Below, piece after piece: positions 13,099-60,433 of a stretch of DNA of 64,000 nucleotides. How positions within the stretch are numbered: the stretch's first letter is position 1; each line of letters begins with the position of its first letter. A program made the position numbers and the translations under genes. The DNA lies in NCBI RefSeq assembly GCF_000374045.1, contig NZ_KB893337.1:186172-250171 (forward strand). Direction: 5' to 3'. This DNA is from Segetibacter koreensis DSM 18137 (lineage in GTDB: Bacteria; Bacteroidota; Bacteroidia; Chitinophagales; Chitinophagaceae). The notes beneath the pieces were generated by a model that made no database searches, had not been told where the DNA came from, and saw only the letters and a list, made by a program, of their open reading frames with translations.

Positions 13099-14142
13099 AT
13101 GACACCAACCAAAGGATATGCTGCACAAGCAGCAACGGAACCGTTAGCACCATTCTCATTTGAAAGAAGAGATTTAAGGCCAAATGACGTTCAGATAGAG
13201 ATTTTGTATTGTGGAGTTTGTCATTCTGACCTGCATACAGCACGCAACGAATGGCATGGCACTACTTACCCTTGTGTACCGGGCCACGAAATTGTAGGAC
13301 GTGTAACCAACGTGGGAGAACAGGTTAACAAATTTAAGAAGGGCGACCTCGTAGGAGTTGGATGTCTTGTTGACTCGTGCCAGAAATGCGACAATTGCAA
13401 GCAGGGTCTGGAACAATACTGCGAGGAAATGCCTACACAGACCTACAATAGCCCTGACAGAATTGACCAAAGCGTCACCAAAGGAGGATATTCAAATAAC
13501 ATTATTGTTTCCGAAAATTTTGTTTTAAGCGTATCAGATAAACTTCCGCTTGAAGGTGTTGCACCATTATTATGTGCCGGTATCACTACCTACTCACCTA
13601 TGCGTCACTGGAAAGTCGGTCCTGGACATAAAGTAGCTGTTTTAGGTTTAGGCGGATTGGGACACATGGCCGTAAAACTTGCTGTTTCATTTGGGGCTGA
13701 AGTGACGATGCTTAGTACTTCGCCATCTAAAGAAGCTGACGCAAAAAGGTTAGGTGCACACAAATTCGCACTAACCAAAGACCCGGAACAATTGAAAGGT
13801 TTGGCTAATTACTTTGATTTTATTATTGATACCGTTTCTGCAGAGCATAATTACAACATGTACTTAAATCTTCTCAACACAGATGGTGTTATGATATGCG
13901 TAGGTGCACCTCCAACGCCGGCACAAGTTCCTGCGTTTAACCTTATTTTTCAACGCAGAAGCATTGCTGGTTCTTTAATTGGTGGTTTACCTGAAACACA
14001 GGAAATGCTGGATTACTGTGCTGAACATGGTATAACAAGCGACGTGGAAGTAATTGCAATGAAGGACATTAACACAGCTTACGAACGAATGCTGAAAGGC
14101 GATGTACGTTATCGTTTTGTAATTGATATGGCGACATTATAA
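13099..14142 (+). CDS. Zinc-dependent NAD(P)-alcohol dehydrogenase (YahK/CAD type)
   Basis: 347 residues of the medium-chain dehydrogenase family. Catalytic-zinc motifs: CGVCHSD and PGHEIVG. Structural-zinc cysteines: CQKCDNCKQGLEQYC. The nucleotide fold has GLGGLGHMAVK, followed by LSTSPSKEADAKRLGA; Ser/Thr residues at that place usually indicate NADP(H). This matches the cinnamyl-alcohol-dehydrogenase/YahK subgroup of aldehyde reductases. It is monocistronic: divergent from the deacetylase (278 bp) and closed by a perfect palindromic terminator. The physiological aldehyde is unknown. Confidence 0.92.
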   Translation: MTPTKGYAAQAATEPLAPFSFERRDLRPNDVQIEILYCGVCHSDLHTARNEWHGTTYPCVPGHEIVGRVTNVGEQVNKFKKGDLVGVGCLVDSCQKCDNCKQGLEQYCEEMPTQTYNSPDRIDQSVTKGGYSNNIIVSENFVLSVSDKLPLEGVAPLLCAGITTYSPMRHWKVGPGHKVAVLGLGGLGHMAVKLAVSFGAEVTMLSTSPSKEADAKRLGAHKFALTKDPEQLKGLANYFDFIIDTVSAEHNYNMYLNLLNTDGVMICVGAPPTPAQVPAFNLIFQRRSIAGSLIGGLPETQEMLDYCAEHGITSDVEVIAMKDINTAYERMLKGDVRYRFVIDMATL

Positions 14143-54694: not shown

Positions 54695-54967
54695 ATGAAA
54701 ATAGAATTTATAAAAAACATCCAGTTTACTAAGCTGGTTAAGGCAGACGGACAATTGAGGGAGTTTAACTTCAGGAAGATAAGCGGGTCGAAGGAAGGGT
54801 TGTTTTCTGTTGATGTAAGCGATGATCGAGGAAATCGAAAAATGTTTAAAATGCAAAAAATAGATAATACCTGGAAAATACTGGCTGATGATCAATTACC
54901 TGATTGGATCTGGAAAAACGAAAGTATTTTTAATGATTTAATTGAAGAGGAACTTCGCAACAATTAA
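54695..54967 (+). CDS. Small conserved-looking protein, unknown function
   Basis: 90 residues, no signal or membrane segment. Beta-rich N-terminal half (IEFIKNIQFTKLVKADGQLREFNFRKI; GLFSVDVSDDRGN), then a helix with WKILADDQLPDWIWKNESIFNDLIEEEL. Coding character (compact fold pattern, acidic C-terminal helix) and a downstream terminator at 55092-55127 support it as a gene. I do not recognise a family. Confidence 0.6.
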   Translation: MKIEFIKNIQFTKLVKADGQLREFNFRKISGSKEGLFSVDVSDDRGNRKMFKMQKIDNTWKILADDQLPDWIWKNESIFNDLIEEELRNN

Positions 54968-55091
54968 ATACATTTCACTGCAAAAGGGTTTTAAAGTTTT
55001 AAGGAAGGCTAAAAACGGTAAGACAAAAAAATCTAATGTACTATCTCGGTTACGCCGCTTAAAAAAATATTAATTCAGTGGTATAATTTAT

Positions 55092-55127
55092 AAAAAGCTA
55101 TCTCTTATTATCAGGGATAGCTTTTTT
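55092..55127 (+). terminator. Hairpin terminator downstream of the small unknown gene
   Basis: A 13-bp stem (aaaaagctatctc pairing with gggatagcttttt, one G-U) and a ten-base loop, ending in a T6 run. It lies 125 bp past the 90-residue ORF. Confidence 0.75.
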
Positions 55128-55233
55128 ATTGAACTTATTTTTACCACTATAAGTAATAGCCTAGGCTGTAATAAATGCCTGTGCTCTTTAAGTTTAATTT
55201 GCTAGCCTTCTTACAAAAAATAAGGATCTAAAC

Positions 55234-55260
55234 AAAAGCCGCCACAAAAATGTAGCGGCG
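55234..55260 (-). terminator. Probable terminator of the mgtC-like transcript
   Basis: On the minus strand gccgc...gcggc with an inner tac/gtg continuation, followed by cttttgttt. It lies about 240 bp downstream of the mgtC-like reading-frame end. Confidence 0.5.
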
Positions 55261-55500
55261 ATATTGTTTAAACAATTCCATCTTTCGTTAGAATCCTTGA
55301 ATTTAAAATTCTCTATTAAACAAGCAATCAAACATAACTAAAGGTAGAAAACAATTATTGAAGAAATAGGGGGGCAAATACTCGTTAAATCATATTCATT
55401 AAACTGCAAACATCATAGTATTTTTACCATTACGTTTGCATCTATTACTACATTTTACGGGCGGGAAAATTGAAAACCAGTTAATTTCGTGAGAATTGAC

Positions 55501-56145
55501 CTACATAAGTTCCTCAAAATACTTAAGGTCGTTATTGTTTAAGATATAGTTATAAAAGTCAGATTTTTGTTTTTTTGAAAGCCTTATTCTGTATTCTGCT
55601 ATAAACTTATCATTATCTTTTATAAGACTGCTTCTTGTAAAAGAAATTTTTTTCTTTTTAAATTCTGTTTCTAACTGATCAATAGAAAGGTGGTCTTTCA
55701 GGAAGGAGAACTTGTATTTTTTTACCTCTTTTTTTGCATCTAATACCTTTTCTACACTTGCTAATATTGTAAGAATGGTTAATGTTCAGATGAGTGTGAC
55801 AAAACCGATCCAATAATTACCAAATCCTATGGCCATTCCTATAGCGGCGGCTACCCAGATAGTAGCGGCAGAAGTAAGGCCGTAGACATTCATCCCCTCT
55901 TTAAAGATTACTCCGGCTCCCAAAAAGCCTACACCTGTTACTACGTTACTTGCAATACGATCAGGAGATTGTGTGTTTATTGTAAGATTTAACAAAGAAA
56001 ACAGGGCTGCACCGACTGTAATTAAGATAATAGTTCGCATCCCGGCCGGTTTATCACGATACTCACGCTCTATCCCTAATAATGTTCCGGCAACAAAAGC
56101 ACATCCGATTTTTAATATTTCACTCCATGGTATTTCCATTATCAC
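55501..56145 (-). pseudogene. MgtC/SapB-family membrane protein gene interrupted by in-frame TGA
   Basis: The frame from 56145 encodes 119 residues of a typical MgtC N-domain (AGTLLGIEREYRDKPAGMRT, VTGVGFLGAGVIFKEG, GLTSAATIWVAAAIGMAIG) and stops at TGA 55786-55788. The same frame then continues without any stop for 94 codons to TAG at 55501-55503, giving the end of the last membrane helix (TLTILTILASVEKVL) and a soluble ACT-like tail (KFSFLKDHLSIDQLETEFK...YRIRLSKKQKSDFYNYIL). The total of ~214 codons equals normal family length. So a single nonsense codon splits an otherwise intact gene: recent mutation, sequence error, or readthrough. It is 4 bp after a beta-CASP gene, likely the same transcript. 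Confidence 0.85.
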
Positions 56146-56149
56146 ACTT

Positions 56150-57553
56150 TTACTCCAGGATAAACTCCTGGTGCATAGAAGGCATTTCTACTTTTTCAAA
56201 ACCTTTTCGGTTCAGTCTTGCTGCAAGTTCCTGTTGTGCCAGGTATTCACCGTGCACAAGAAAAACTGTTTTTACTTTTTCCGTATCCTGGCATCCAACA
56301 AAACGACACAAGTCATCACTATCTCCGTGTGCACTCATACTTTTTATTTGTCCTACTTCTGCCTTTACATTGCAAGTATCACCAAAAATCTCTACCTGCT
56401 GTGCACCGTTCAACAGCCTGCCTCCCAAAGACGATGGCTGACAATAGCCAGACATCAACACAGCGTTCGCTTCTCCGTCTATGCAACTAAAAATATGATG
56501 TTTCACCCGGCCTGCATCGGCAGTACCACTGGATGAAATAATAACACAAGGCTCTTTATATTCTACCAGTTGTTTGCTATCATCAGCAGTATCAACATAT
56601 TTCAACCCTTTAAACAAAAAAGGATCTTCATCTATTTTCAATATGTTTTGCAAACGGTCATTATAGTCATTCTTATAACTTTTAATTACCTCTGTCGCTT
56701 TTGTGCCCAATGGGCTATCTACAAAATAATTTAATTCAGGCAACCTGTGCTCCAGTTCCAGCTGGTTTAGCGAATACAATATTTCCTGGGTACGGCCTAC
56801 ACTAAATGCCGGAATAATCAGTTTTCCTCCTCTTTTAATACAAATCCTTTTAATCCATTTTTCTAAATTTTCAATTGTACTAAATGCAATATCATGCATC
56901 TTATCTCCGTAGGTGCTTTCTAAAATTACATAATCTGCCTGAGGAAATTCGGCCGGCGGTTGCAAAAGAGCACTTCTGTACCTGCCAACATCACCGCTAA
57001 AAGTAATCGCTGTTGTTTTTCCATTTTCCGTTGCCCTGATATTTATAGCTGCACTTCCTATCAAATGCCCCGCATTGGAATACATAACTTCTACATCTTC
57101 ATCTATTTTTACCCATTCATTGTACTCAATTGTTTCAAACAAAGACATCGCTGCAACCACATCATCCACGGTGTATAGGGCATGACACGCTTCTCCGTTC
57201 GTGGCTCCTCTCCTTTTGTTCATATAATCTGCTTCCGAAACCTGAATTTCCGCGCTGTCATATAACAATATTTCACTCAAATCTTTTGTAGCCTGGGTAC
57301 TATATATTTTACCTGTAAAACCCTCTTTAACTAACTTTGGAATAAGACCTGAATGATCTATATGAGCATGCGATAAAAACACGCAGTATACCCCTTTCGC
57401 ATCAAATCCAAACTCATTGTTTAAAGCATCTGTTTCAGCACCCATCCCCTGAAACATTCCACAATCCAATAAGTATTTTTTTCCGTTGTCTAAAGTCAGT
57501 AAATGTTTAGTTCCCGTAACTGTTCTCGCTGCACCGTGAAAAGATAGCTTCAT
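56150..57553 (-). CDS. MBL-fold beta-CASP RNase/exonuclease-like protein (copy 1)
   Basis: 467 residues. Metallo-beta-lactamase motif HAHIDHSGLIPKL (HxHxDH), GHLIGSAA, SGDVGRY and ESTYGD; beta-CASP motifs FSVGRTQEILY and SSSGTADAGRVKHHI; a final HGEYLAQQELA. This is the family of CPSF/Ysh1-type RNA-processing nucleases. The position usually reading MAEAGR has TADAGR. Cytoplasmic. It is followed 4 bp later by the mgtC-like gene, and the paralogue of identical length lies 244 bp upstream. Confidence 0.9.
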   Translation of the reverse strand: MKLSFHGAARTVTGTKHLLTLDNGKKYLLDCGMFQGMGAETDALNNEFGFDAKGVYCVFLSHAHIDHSGLIPKLVKEGFTGKIYSTQATKDLSEILLYDSAEIQVSEADYMNKRRGATNGEACHALYTVDDVVAAMSLFETIEYNEWVKIDEDVEVMYSNAGHLIGSAAINIRATENGKTTAITFSGDVGRYRSALLQPPAEFPQADYVILESTYGDKMHDIAFSTIENLEKWIKRICIKRGGKLIIPAFSVGRTQEILYSLNQLELEHRLPELNYFVDSPLGTKATEVIKSYKNDYNDRLQNILKIDEDPFLFKGLKYVDTADDSKQLVEYKEPCVIISSSGTADAGRVKHHIFSCIDGEANAVLMSGYCQPSSLGGRLLNGAQQVEIFGDTCNVKAEVGQIKSMSAHGDSDDLCRFVGCQDTEKVKTVFLVHGEYLAQQELAARLNRKGFEKVEMPSMHQEFILE

Positions 57554-57797
57554 AAATCTCTGTTACTAATAAATATAAATAATTTTCCTTTATTCATATT
57601 TTGATAATTATTTTAAAAAATATTTTTTACAACTTATTTTATATACTGGTATTTATTGTATCTGTTTTTGATCCAGGCATGCTTACTATTTAGTATTTAG
57701 CTTGCTTGCATACCACTTGTGCGATCCTCTCTTTACTTAACCGCCAACCCAAATGTTAGCACGAGATGTAACCCCCCAAAAAATGATTATAAGTTCG

Positions 57798-59201
57798 TTA
57801 ATTGCCGAGCGTAAGTGCATAATTCATACCCGGTATTTCTACATCAAATCCCTTTTGCATAAGCTTCTCTGCGAACTGTGTTTGTACATCATATTCCCCA
57901 TGTACAAGAAAAAGTTTCTTTATCTTATTTTGATCCTGGTTAGAGATAAAATGACACAAATCGTTGTAATCGCCGTGCGCACTCATGCCGCCCATTTTAC
58001 CTATTTCTGCTTTTACGATAAGATCTCTGCCATAAATGTCAACCTGTTTCACGCCATTCATTAACTTTCCAGCAAGTGAAAATGGAGAAGCGTGACCAAC
58101 CATAAGAATTGTGTTTTTGGGATCCTCTATGTTGTTTTTAATATGATGCTTTACCCTGCCCGCCTCCGCCATGCCACTTGAACTTATAATAACGCAAGGC
58201 TCATTAAAAAAATTAATCTGCTTGCTTTCGTCAACTGTTTTAATATACTTCAGCCCCTTAAACTTGAAAGGATCGTTGTCGTGAAGCAATACATCCAGCA
58301 ATACCGGGTTAAAGTTTTCAGGATGATTTTCTATAACTTCTGTAGCTTCAAGGCTCATAGGGCTGTCAACAAAATAAGTAAGGGCGGGAAGCTTGTTTTT
58401 ATTCTCCAACTGGTTTAGCATGTACAGCAATTGCTGCGTGCGCCCCACGCTAAAAGCAGGAATTATTAATTTCCCTTTTTTCTCAAGACATGTTTTTATA
58501 ATCCAGCCTAAAAACGCTTCTGCAGAGTCTTTTACTTCCTCGTGAAGTCTGTTTCCATAAGTGCTTTCCAATATTAAATAATCAGCTTGTGGACATTCTT
58601 CGGGCGATTTTAAAATAGCGTCTGCATACCTTCCCACATCTCCGCTAAAGGTGATACGCGTTGTATTTTCGTCTTCCACTAATTGCAGGTTTACAGCAGC
58701 GCTTCCAATGATGTGTCCGGCATCTGTAAAAAGAAGTTTTATTTCATCATCTATACTAACCCATTTGTCGTACTCTACAGTGCTAAACAATTCCAGGCAA
58801 TTTTTTACATCTTCTGTCGAAAACATGGGCTCAAATAGCGGCAATCCTTTTTTTAATCTTTTCCGGTTAATATACTTTGTATCTGCCTGTTGTATCTCGG
58901 CGCTGTCTATTAATAATACTTTACAAAGATCTTTTGTTCCGGAAGTACAAAACACAGTACCTCTAAAACCTTCTTTATATAATTTTGGTATTAAACCCGA
59001 ATGGTCTATATGAGCATGCGATAAAACAAGGTAATTTACTTCAGTAGGATGAAAACCGAATTGACTATTTAATTCATCAGTCTGTCGTCCCATTCCCTGG
59101 AACATACCACAATCTAATAATAGCTTTTTGCCATTTTTTAGTGATATTAAATGCTTGGAACCTGTTACTGTTCTCGCTGCGCCATGAAATGATATTTGCA
59201 T
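57798..59201 (-). CDS. MBL-fold beta-CASP RNase/exonuclease-like protein (copy 2)
   Basis: 467 residues, the same length as its neighbour and alignable end to end (both begin with SFHGAARTVTG and carry HAHIDHSGLIPKL). It has the standard SSSGMAEAGRVKHHI beta-CASP motif and HGEYDVQTQFAEKL. It probably cleaves RNA using two zinc ions. The upstream DUF4442 gene ends 31 bp before its start, so those two form an operon. Tandem duplication with moderate divergence suggests an old event. Confidence 0.9.
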   Translation of the reverse strand: MQISFHGAARTVTGSKHLISLKNGKKLLLDCGMFQGMGRQTDELNSQFGFHPTEVNYLVLSHAHIDHSGLIPKLYKEGFRGTVFCTSGTKDLCKVLLIDSAEIQQADTKYINRKRLKKGLPLFEPMFSTEDVKNCLELFSTVEYDKWVSIDDEIKLLFTDAGHIIGSAAVNLQLVEDENTTRITFSGDVGRYADAILKSPEECPQADYLILESTYGNRLHEEVKDSAEAFLGWIIKTCLEKKGKLIIPAFSVGRTQQLLYMLNQLENKNKLPALTYFVDSPMSLEATEVIENHPENFNPVLLDVLLHDNDPFKFKGLKYIKTVDESKQINFFNEPCVIISSSGMAEAGRVKHHIKNNIEDPKNTILMVGHASPFSLAGKLMNGVKQVDIYGRDLIVKAEIGKMGGMSAHGDYNDLCHFISNQDQNKIKKLFLVHGEYDVQTQFAEKLMQKGFDVEIPGMNYALTLGN

Positions 59202-59232
59202 AAAACCTGGCTTTTATACAAATACTAAAATA

Positions 59233-59724
59233 TCAGGCCTTTATTCTCGCTTTAAAACTCCAGGTAAAATAAAAGTCAGCCACAATTTCTTCCTTCTCAT
59301 TTTTACCTATGCTATGGCATCTTACTGCTGTGGCTTCACCCGTAGATACAGCTTTGTTAATCGCATTACTTACAAGCATTCCATCCGTACAGGTAAAAAC
59401 AATTTTTCCTGTTGCTTTTTTTAAAAAATCACCTTCTGTGTGTACGAGCAACATGCTGACAGCAGGAGTTCTTTTATATAAATAACCAATACATAAAATA
59501 CCAGTGCTTATTTCGGCAGGCATTAAGAGAACAGCAAAATAAACCGAACGAAAAGGATTTTTAGTAAACCAGTTGTACTGAACACTTATTGCAGATTCTT
59601 CCATTTCTAATTTCTCAAGCCTTACACCAGCAAAAAATGCTGCAGGAACTTTTGTTAGCAAAAAAGTTCGAAAGACCAGGGCATTAGCTAGTTTTTTTTT
59701 GAAAGTGAGAAAGTTAGATGACAA
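59233..59724 (-). CDS. DUF4442 hotdog-fold (thioesterase-like) protein
   Basis: 163 residues. The AAFFAGVRLEKLEMEESAISVQYNWFTKNPFRSVYFAVLLMPAEISTGIL segment is characteristic of DUF4442, a hotdog-fold relative of PaaI-type thioesterases. The substrate and activity are unknown. It lies 31 bp before the second beta-CASP gene; a functional link is not evident. Confidence 0.75.
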   Translation of the reverse strand: MSSNFLTFKKKLANALVFRTFLLTKVPAAFFAGVRLEKLEMEESAISVQYNWFTKNPFRSVYFAVLLMPAEISTGILCIGYLYKRTPAVSMLLVHTEGDFLKKATGKIVFTCTDGMLVSNAINKAVSTGEATAVRCHSIGKNEKEEIVADFYFTWSFKARIKA

Positions 59725-59778
59725 GTTAGAAGGTTTAAATGATTTTTATAGAATTTCTCACTTTAGCTTACTACTTAA

Positions 59779-60252
59779 TTACCCTAATTCTTCCAATTGC
59801 TTTTTATAATCAAACCTTAAGTCTTCATGCACTTGCTCTACAAGTGTATTCAGTTTTTTAAGCTGCATTTCGTATAGATTTGATAATGCTTTATTTGTCC
59901 GAAAGCGAATGCCCGAATTATGTAAATTTTTACAGAAGTGAATGAGCATTTCAAGTTCCGACTCTTTTTTTACAGTATGCTTACTATACTTAGCAATTGA
60001 CCTTAATATTTTACGAAGTCCTTTCTTTATAAGGTACATGTTCCCCCTTGGCAAATTCCAAAATCCGTCATTAATTTCCTTTTTAATTTCTTCAACATAT
60101 CCTTCTTCATTATGCGCCTCAAACAGAAGATAACTCAGAAGCTCTTTGTTTTCTTTTTTAAATTTAGCAAGCTTCAGACATAATTCCAACACTGTTTTAG
60201 GTGGAAGTGTCACTAGTTCCTGTTTCAATTCGCTTATGCTTGCTGCTTTCAT
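59779..60252 (-). CDS. Helical protein of unknown function
   Basis: 157 residues, entirely charged and helical (SELKQELVTLPPKTVLELCLKLAKFKKENKELLSYLLFEAHNEEGYVEEIKKEIN...), no signal. It lies 54 bp upstream of the DUF4442 gene on the same strand and diverges from tetR. I have no family assignment, but composition and length are gene-like. Confidence 0.7.
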   Translation of the reverse strand: MKAASISELKQELVTLPPKTVLELCLKLAKFKKENKELLSYLLFEAHNEEGYVEEIKKEINDGFWNLPRGNMYLIKKGLRKILRSIAKYSKHTVKKESELEMLIHFCKNLHNSGIRFRTNKALSNLYEMQLKKLNTLVEQVHEDLRFDYKKQLEELG

Positions 60253-60392
60253 TAATAATATCTTTTTATGACTAAAAAAACAAAAATCATTCTTTCTTGT
60301 AATAATCTGATTATTCTTTAAAAAACAAAATTCATTCTACTATTACCTCCGCCCTATCAAAATGAGAAGTGTTAACACAAACAAAAAAAGTT

Positions 60393-60433
60393 AAACAAAT
60401 ATTTGTTTTAAATTAAACGTTTATTTAGTTTTG
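60393..60433 (+). promoter_or_regulatory. Bacteroidota-type promoter overlapped by two TetR-like palindromes
   Basis: -33 TTTG at 60402-60405, 20-bp spacer, -7 TAGTTTTG at 60426-60433, fitting TTTG-N19-21-TAnnTTTG. A perfect 16-bp palindrome (aaacaaat/atttgttt, 60393-60408) covers the -33 box and a 10-bp palindrome taaacgttta (60414-60423) lies in the spacer. Repression by the adjacent TetR protein would block polymerase. The start codon is at 60454. Confidence 0.8.

Follow-up and report, generated by a model that had tools for sequence, protein, structure and literature searches.

The interrupted MgtC-family gene

The window, by which we mean the whole stretch of 64,000 nucleotides of Segetibacter koreensis DSM 18137 DNA analysed here, carries on its minus strand a gene of the MgtC family (PF02308) at 55501..56139, reading from an ATG at 56139 to a TAG at 55503-55501 and containing one in-frame TGA at 55786..55788. 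The TGA separates an open head of 117 codons (55789..56139, minus strand) from an open tail of 94 codons plus TAG (55501..55785, minus strand). An earlier note on this DNA had reported the interruption of the MgtC-family frame and the 94 codons leading on to a normal stop, and both are confirmed, with a sole correction to the codon numbering. The TGA is codon 120, as the note had it, when counted from a GTG at 56145; in the alignment, however, the starts of the nearest relatives (L003-L006) line up with the ATG at 56139, which is hence the likelier start and makes the TGA codon 118. The base directly 3' of the TGA is A, not C.

Apart from the TGA, the gene contains neither a frameshift nor a second stop, so that the claim of no other lesion stands. 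The same is true of its family-like length: the readthrough frame comprises 212 codons from the ATG, TGA counted, as compared with 207-222 amino acids in the 19 intact aligned relatives. The head matches PF02308 with 119.9 bits (E 1.1e-34; cut-off 31.4) and thereby belongs to the family; in the whole-genome search the match reached 127.9 bits and was the sole PF02308 match found in the genome. By itself, the tail matched no Pfam family at E <= 1, and its codons share 46% identity with the closest relative's tail. Because the head matches the family and the tail resembles that of a relative to this degree, the open tail is not a product of chance. Restart of translation past the TGA was considered and rejected: within the tail, neither ATG nor GTG nor TTG occurs ahead of its last sense codon, which makes a separate tail protein unlikely. 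A profile search of solved structures yielded nothing at E <= 1, and nothing similar turned up among plasmid records at the sensitivity of the search.

Position of the stop in the predicted protein

The structural model of an intact relative (L032; mean pLDDT 87.7) comprises helices at residues 5-27, 34-52, 56-80, 85-105 and 109-136, followed by a tail of beta-alpha-beta-beta-alpha-beta topology. The TGA of the window corresponds to L032 residue 118 and is, thus, located within the fifth and last predicted transmembrane helix. According to this model, the head would encode helices 1 to 4 in full and the initial third of helix 5, and the part behind the TGA would contribute the remainder of that helix together with an ACT-like domain; a complete five-helix membrane domain is not contained in one open frame. 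The 117-residue product would consequently be without two thirds of helix 5 and the entire tail.

In a fold comparison of the L032 tail, NikR chains came first and the ACT chains 2ko1 and 3ibw ranked third and fourth (TM-scores by target of 0.69 and 0.75, respectively); other ferredoxin-like chains also matched, and none reached E <= 0.001. The last helix and ACT-like tail proposed in the earlier note are supported by the model to this extent, with ACT among the best folds. As stated in an excerpt of a review (PMC6151718), the C-terminal domain of Mycobacterium tuberculosis MgtC has an ACT fold. The gene of the window is akin to this family type in its membrane domain, well above the Pfam cut-off, and in the predicted ACT-like topology of its intact relative's tail; compared with the type as described in that excerpt, it differs in being interrupted in helix 5 and in standing beside beta-CASP RNase-like genes.

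Gene neighbourhood

Upstream of the MgtC-family gene lies a metallo-beta-lactamase/beta-CASP RNase-like gene (56150..57553, minus strand; 4 bp upstream of the GTG at 56145), next to a second, tandem beta-CASP RNase-like gene (57798..59201, minus strand) and a gene for a small protein that matches DUF4442 below the cut-off (59233..59724, minus strand), the first gene of a conserved run. The order of DUF4442-like gene, RNase-like gene(s) and mgtC on one strand recurred in all three regions fetched; L175 contains two full RNase-like genes, L176 and L177 a single one each. In L176, which is from the closest relative of the window's genome (G007, same genus), a 46-residue piece at 13919-14056 (minus strand) is found between the RNase-like gene and mgtC. 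This piece shares 76% identity with the C-terminal end of the second beta-CASP gene in the window and, judging from this similarity, is apparently a remnant of a deleted tandem copy.

The stop codon in relatives

The TGA is absent from all 20 aligned relatives, each of which has a sense codon at this column. The residue encoded there is hydrophobic in 19 of them (Ala counted) and Thr in L010; in 19 relatives the frame proceeds to a normal stop, and in L005 it extends beyond the end of the contig. The frame of the window is, therefore, interrupted relative to intact orthologues, as is characteristic of a nonsense pseudogene. The closest relative (G007, apparently identical with L032) has 86% identity ahead of the stop position and an uninterrupted frame.

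On a broader scale, matches to the head were obtained at 121 loci, from which two (the window's own) and five running off the available sequence were set aside. The remaining 114 loci represent 111 distinct sequences and include the closest relative twice. All of these 114 loci have their stop in view, and each extends at least to residue 137, as against 117 for the window; in window numbering, 102 are long (209-234 residues) and 12 are short (ending at 137-158). Likewise, a hand count of the 150 matches listed from a search of 294 family genomes, the window's own match not being among them, revealed none with a stop inside the PF02308 domain.

Eleven of the short loci (L021-L024, L027, L029, L043, L044, L048, L054, L057) are tail-less MgtC-family members ending at residues 137-158, which by position and by eye is after the whole of helix 5 of the L032 model. 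Within 450 bases past their stops no clear tail homologue was detected (best E 0.003 over 18 residues, in L048), and the window's own tail, serving as control, was found at 9e-23. The product of the window shares with these proteins a membrane domain devoid of an ACT-like tail; they extend, however, at least 20 residues beyond its end, and it is unlike them because they end past the whole of helix 5.

The twelfth short locus, L073 from an uncultured Atopobiaceae genome, was rejected as a tail-less member and is a separate interrupted MgtC-family gene. Within 450 bases after the stop its tail continues in a different frame, sharing 94% identity with the L075 tail, and the lesion is accordingly a frameshift. 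Hence, L073 resembles the window in having a tail just past the stop, but its frameshift, in an assembled metagenome, is unrelated to the TGA described here. Broken MgtC-family genes do occur elsewhere, with one case in 114 in this set.

A match was found in 28 of 59 genomes searched as relatives and in 7 of 10 genus genomes, the window's own being counted in both. The genomes that gave no match numbered 3 of 10 in the genus (2 of 8 among those at least 90% complete) and 92 of 294 in the family (74 of 249 at the same completeness), each total including the window's own genome. Given these absences in genus and family, the MgtC-family gene is expendable. Among the papers listed in a literature search on MgtC, nonsense mutations and in-frame or premature stops, none names MgtC; this concerns the search and is no claim on what is in print.

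Has the tail decayed?

Between the window and L003, 85.5% of the amino acids are identical in the head, as against 46.2% in the tail. The same discrepancy is seen between L003 and L004, both of them intact (74.4% and 22.8%), and a fast-evolving tail is accordingly normal in this group. Changes in the tail exclusive to the window versus those exclusive to L003 numbered 6 versus 13 with L004 as outgroup, 8 versus 6 with L005, and 7 versus 8 with L006; changes on the window side are not clearly in excess.

Saturation at synonymous sites (pS about 0.87 for the window and L003) rendered pairwise dN/dS of little use; codon fits were used for this reason. In a joint codon model, in which head and tail were fitted together with shared branch lengths, omega was 0.03 for the head and 0.09 for the tail. 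Among the values tried for the neutral fraction of the window branch in the tail, 0 was best; the log-likelihood dropped by 1.64 at a fraction of 0.05, by 3.23 at 0.10, and by 14.96 at 1, i.e., with the whole branch neutral. Any neutral phase is, thus, confined to roughly the last 5-10% of the window branch, a limit which is rough because of the saturation of synonymous sites and because some branch lengths hit their bound. A fit to the tail only (lnL -1474.67 with shared omega versus -1477.19 when omega was set to 1 for the window branch) gives weak evidence against neutrality, since it lets the window branch shrink. On that branch, omega of the head is 0.013 versus 0.042 elsewhere.

Taken together, no relaxed selection after the lesion was detected in the joint fit, the tail-only fit being weak, as would be expected if the lesion is recent. 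The codon result is compatible both with a recent stop and with a tail that is still made; "recent" is to be understood on the basis of the codon fit, with one strain of the species compared.

Decoding of UGA in the genome

All matches to tRNA-Sec, SelB and SelA in the genome remained below their cut-offs. The best tRNA-Sec match scored 45.3 bits at a cut-off of 47. ARAGORN typed all four tRNA-Sec candidates as ordinary tRNAs for Ser or Leu. Of 41 tRNA matches, 40 have ordinary anticodons, with no UCA tRNA among these 40 typed, and the 41st gave no ARAGORN gene; the scan scored 150 of 392 first-look candidates, so that a tRNA may have been missed. As controls for a reassigned code, 56 ABC_tran and 79 Plug domain matches in the genome (135 in total) were inspected and none contains an in-frame stop; 4 of 42 long open reading frames of the window, chosen by length and overlap only, end in TGA. 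Selenocysteine insertion, a suppressor tRNA and code reassignment are, thus, left without support by the Sec genes, the tRNAs and the control domains.

No stable RNA structure follows the TGA (z = +1.2; 180 of 200 shuffled sequences gave folds at least as good), and an RNA-family scan of the surrounding region (54900-60400) gave nothing above gathering scores. Programmed readthrough would be marked by a stop that is conserved in orthologues and followed by a constrained extension; none of the 20 aligned relatives has the stop, and the frame ends as early in none of the 114 loci. Of the three explanations offered in the earlier note, a very recent nonsense mutation and a base-call error consequently remain, while programmed readthrough lacks support for want of the stop in any relative examined, of Sec genes over cut-off, of a typed UCA tRNA and of RNA structure. 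No support for programmed recoding of the TGA was found.

The tRNA-Trp of the genome has a CCA anticodon and, by eye, an anticodon stem of five pairs with G-U on top; it is identical in two other genus genomes. An anticodon stem of 4 bp, an idea taken from part of PMC13092985, was rejected on account of these five pairs. Its D stem has A24, which was found in 24 of the 29 typed tRNA-Trp genes, this one included (30 loci were submitted, one of which was not called by ARAGORN). As described in the portion of PMC13092985 consulted, G24A is the Hirsh mutation, which lets E. coli tRNA-Trp read UGA. The tRNA-Trp of the lineage (L142:1500-1571, L178-L207), hence, combines the A24 state of the Hirsh UGA suppressor with a CCA anticodon. 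The tRNA-Trp found no match in the E. coli collection at the blastn level, and the G24 state of E. coli, therefore, follows the same portion of PMC13092985. By analogy with the Hirsh state, somewhat raised UGA leakage in the lineage is conceivable; it would be peculiar neither to this gene nor to this genome.

Explanation of the interrupted gene

We consider it probable that the window carries a very recent nonsense mutation which gives rise to a truncated and probably inactive MgtC-family protein. A single nonsense substitution, very recent in evolutionary terms and not encountered in any other genome searched, would cause translation to stop mostly at the TGA inside the fifth transmembrane helix. 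The resulting 117-residue protein, lacking the end of the membrane domain and the ACT-like domain, would most likely be inactive. As mgtC stands last in the conserved run with the beta-CASP RNase-like genes, no downstream gene of the run should be harmed, and the intact tail would reflect too little time for decay; constraint on the tail would look alike if it were still translated by readthrough. A recent nonsense mutation fits the pattern presented in the part of Belinky et al. 2021 (PMC7918605) drawn on here, in which isolated in-frame stops are widespread in bacteria and mostly short-lived. The stop of the window resembles theirs in being isolated, in frame and surrounded by constraint; it differs in that, according to that part, theirs were required in orthologues of two or more species, whereas the present one is seen in one genome.

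A nonsense mutation and a base-call error would leave the same trace in assembled sequence. That the TGA is a base-call or assembly error, the organism's gene being intact, is unlikely, though the next likeliest explanation: a lone substitution in a gene that is clean elsewhere, absent from all relatives examined, is what such an error would produce. The assembly looks clean, however, with 73 contigs, 99.97% completeness and no in-frame stop in the control domains, and the error would have to be the single wrong base that is still possible in such an assembly. The truncated protein could also be functional in its own right, like the natural tail-less members of the family, and the strongly constrained head on the window branch agrees with this; it is, nevertheless, very improbable, because all eleven of these members continue at least 20 residues past the window's stop and, in the L032 model, beyond helix 5, and because the constraint on the head may predate the stop and says little on the time since.

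The undecayed, constrained tail could alternatively indicate that a near-cognate tRNA-Trp reads UGA, yielding a little full-length MgtC, with short and long forms both of importance. UGA is a leaky stop in E. coli, and about 6% readthrough was seen in a B. subtilis reporter (both as given in the part of PMC7918605 used); A24 of the tRNA-Trp, shared with the Hirsh suppressor (PMC13092985), points in the same direction. We regard this as improbable, since the stop is seen in the window genome only, no stable structure follows it, and the tRNA-Trp, being identical in two other genus genomes and having a five-pair stem, shows no feature particular to the window genome. The next base, moreover, is A, and the leakiest UGA context in bacteria is UGAC. 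An extended version, according to which the A24 tRNA-Trp makes UGA leaky throughout the lineage and private UGA stops like the present one are read through in part and act as short-lived knock-downs, here with a little full-length MgtC still made and the tail thereby preserved, is decidedly improbable. Decoding of the TGA as selenocysteine or by a reassigned code is barely credible: the frame stays open past the TGA and the best tRNA-Sec match comes near its cut-off, yet the Sec components all score below theirs, the candidates are Ser and Leu tRNAs, the typed anticodons are ordinary, and TGA serves as a stop at the ends of window reading frames and is absent from the control domains.

With the recent nonsense mutation as the probable explanation, the finding is an ordinary one, i.e., one more recently broken, expendable gene. 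For annotation, the gene should be marked as a probable nonsense pseudogene or as containing a suspected base error. If, on the other hand, it were true that the tRNA-Trp of this lineage makes UGA leaky, "UGA pseudogenes" across the family would need a second look.
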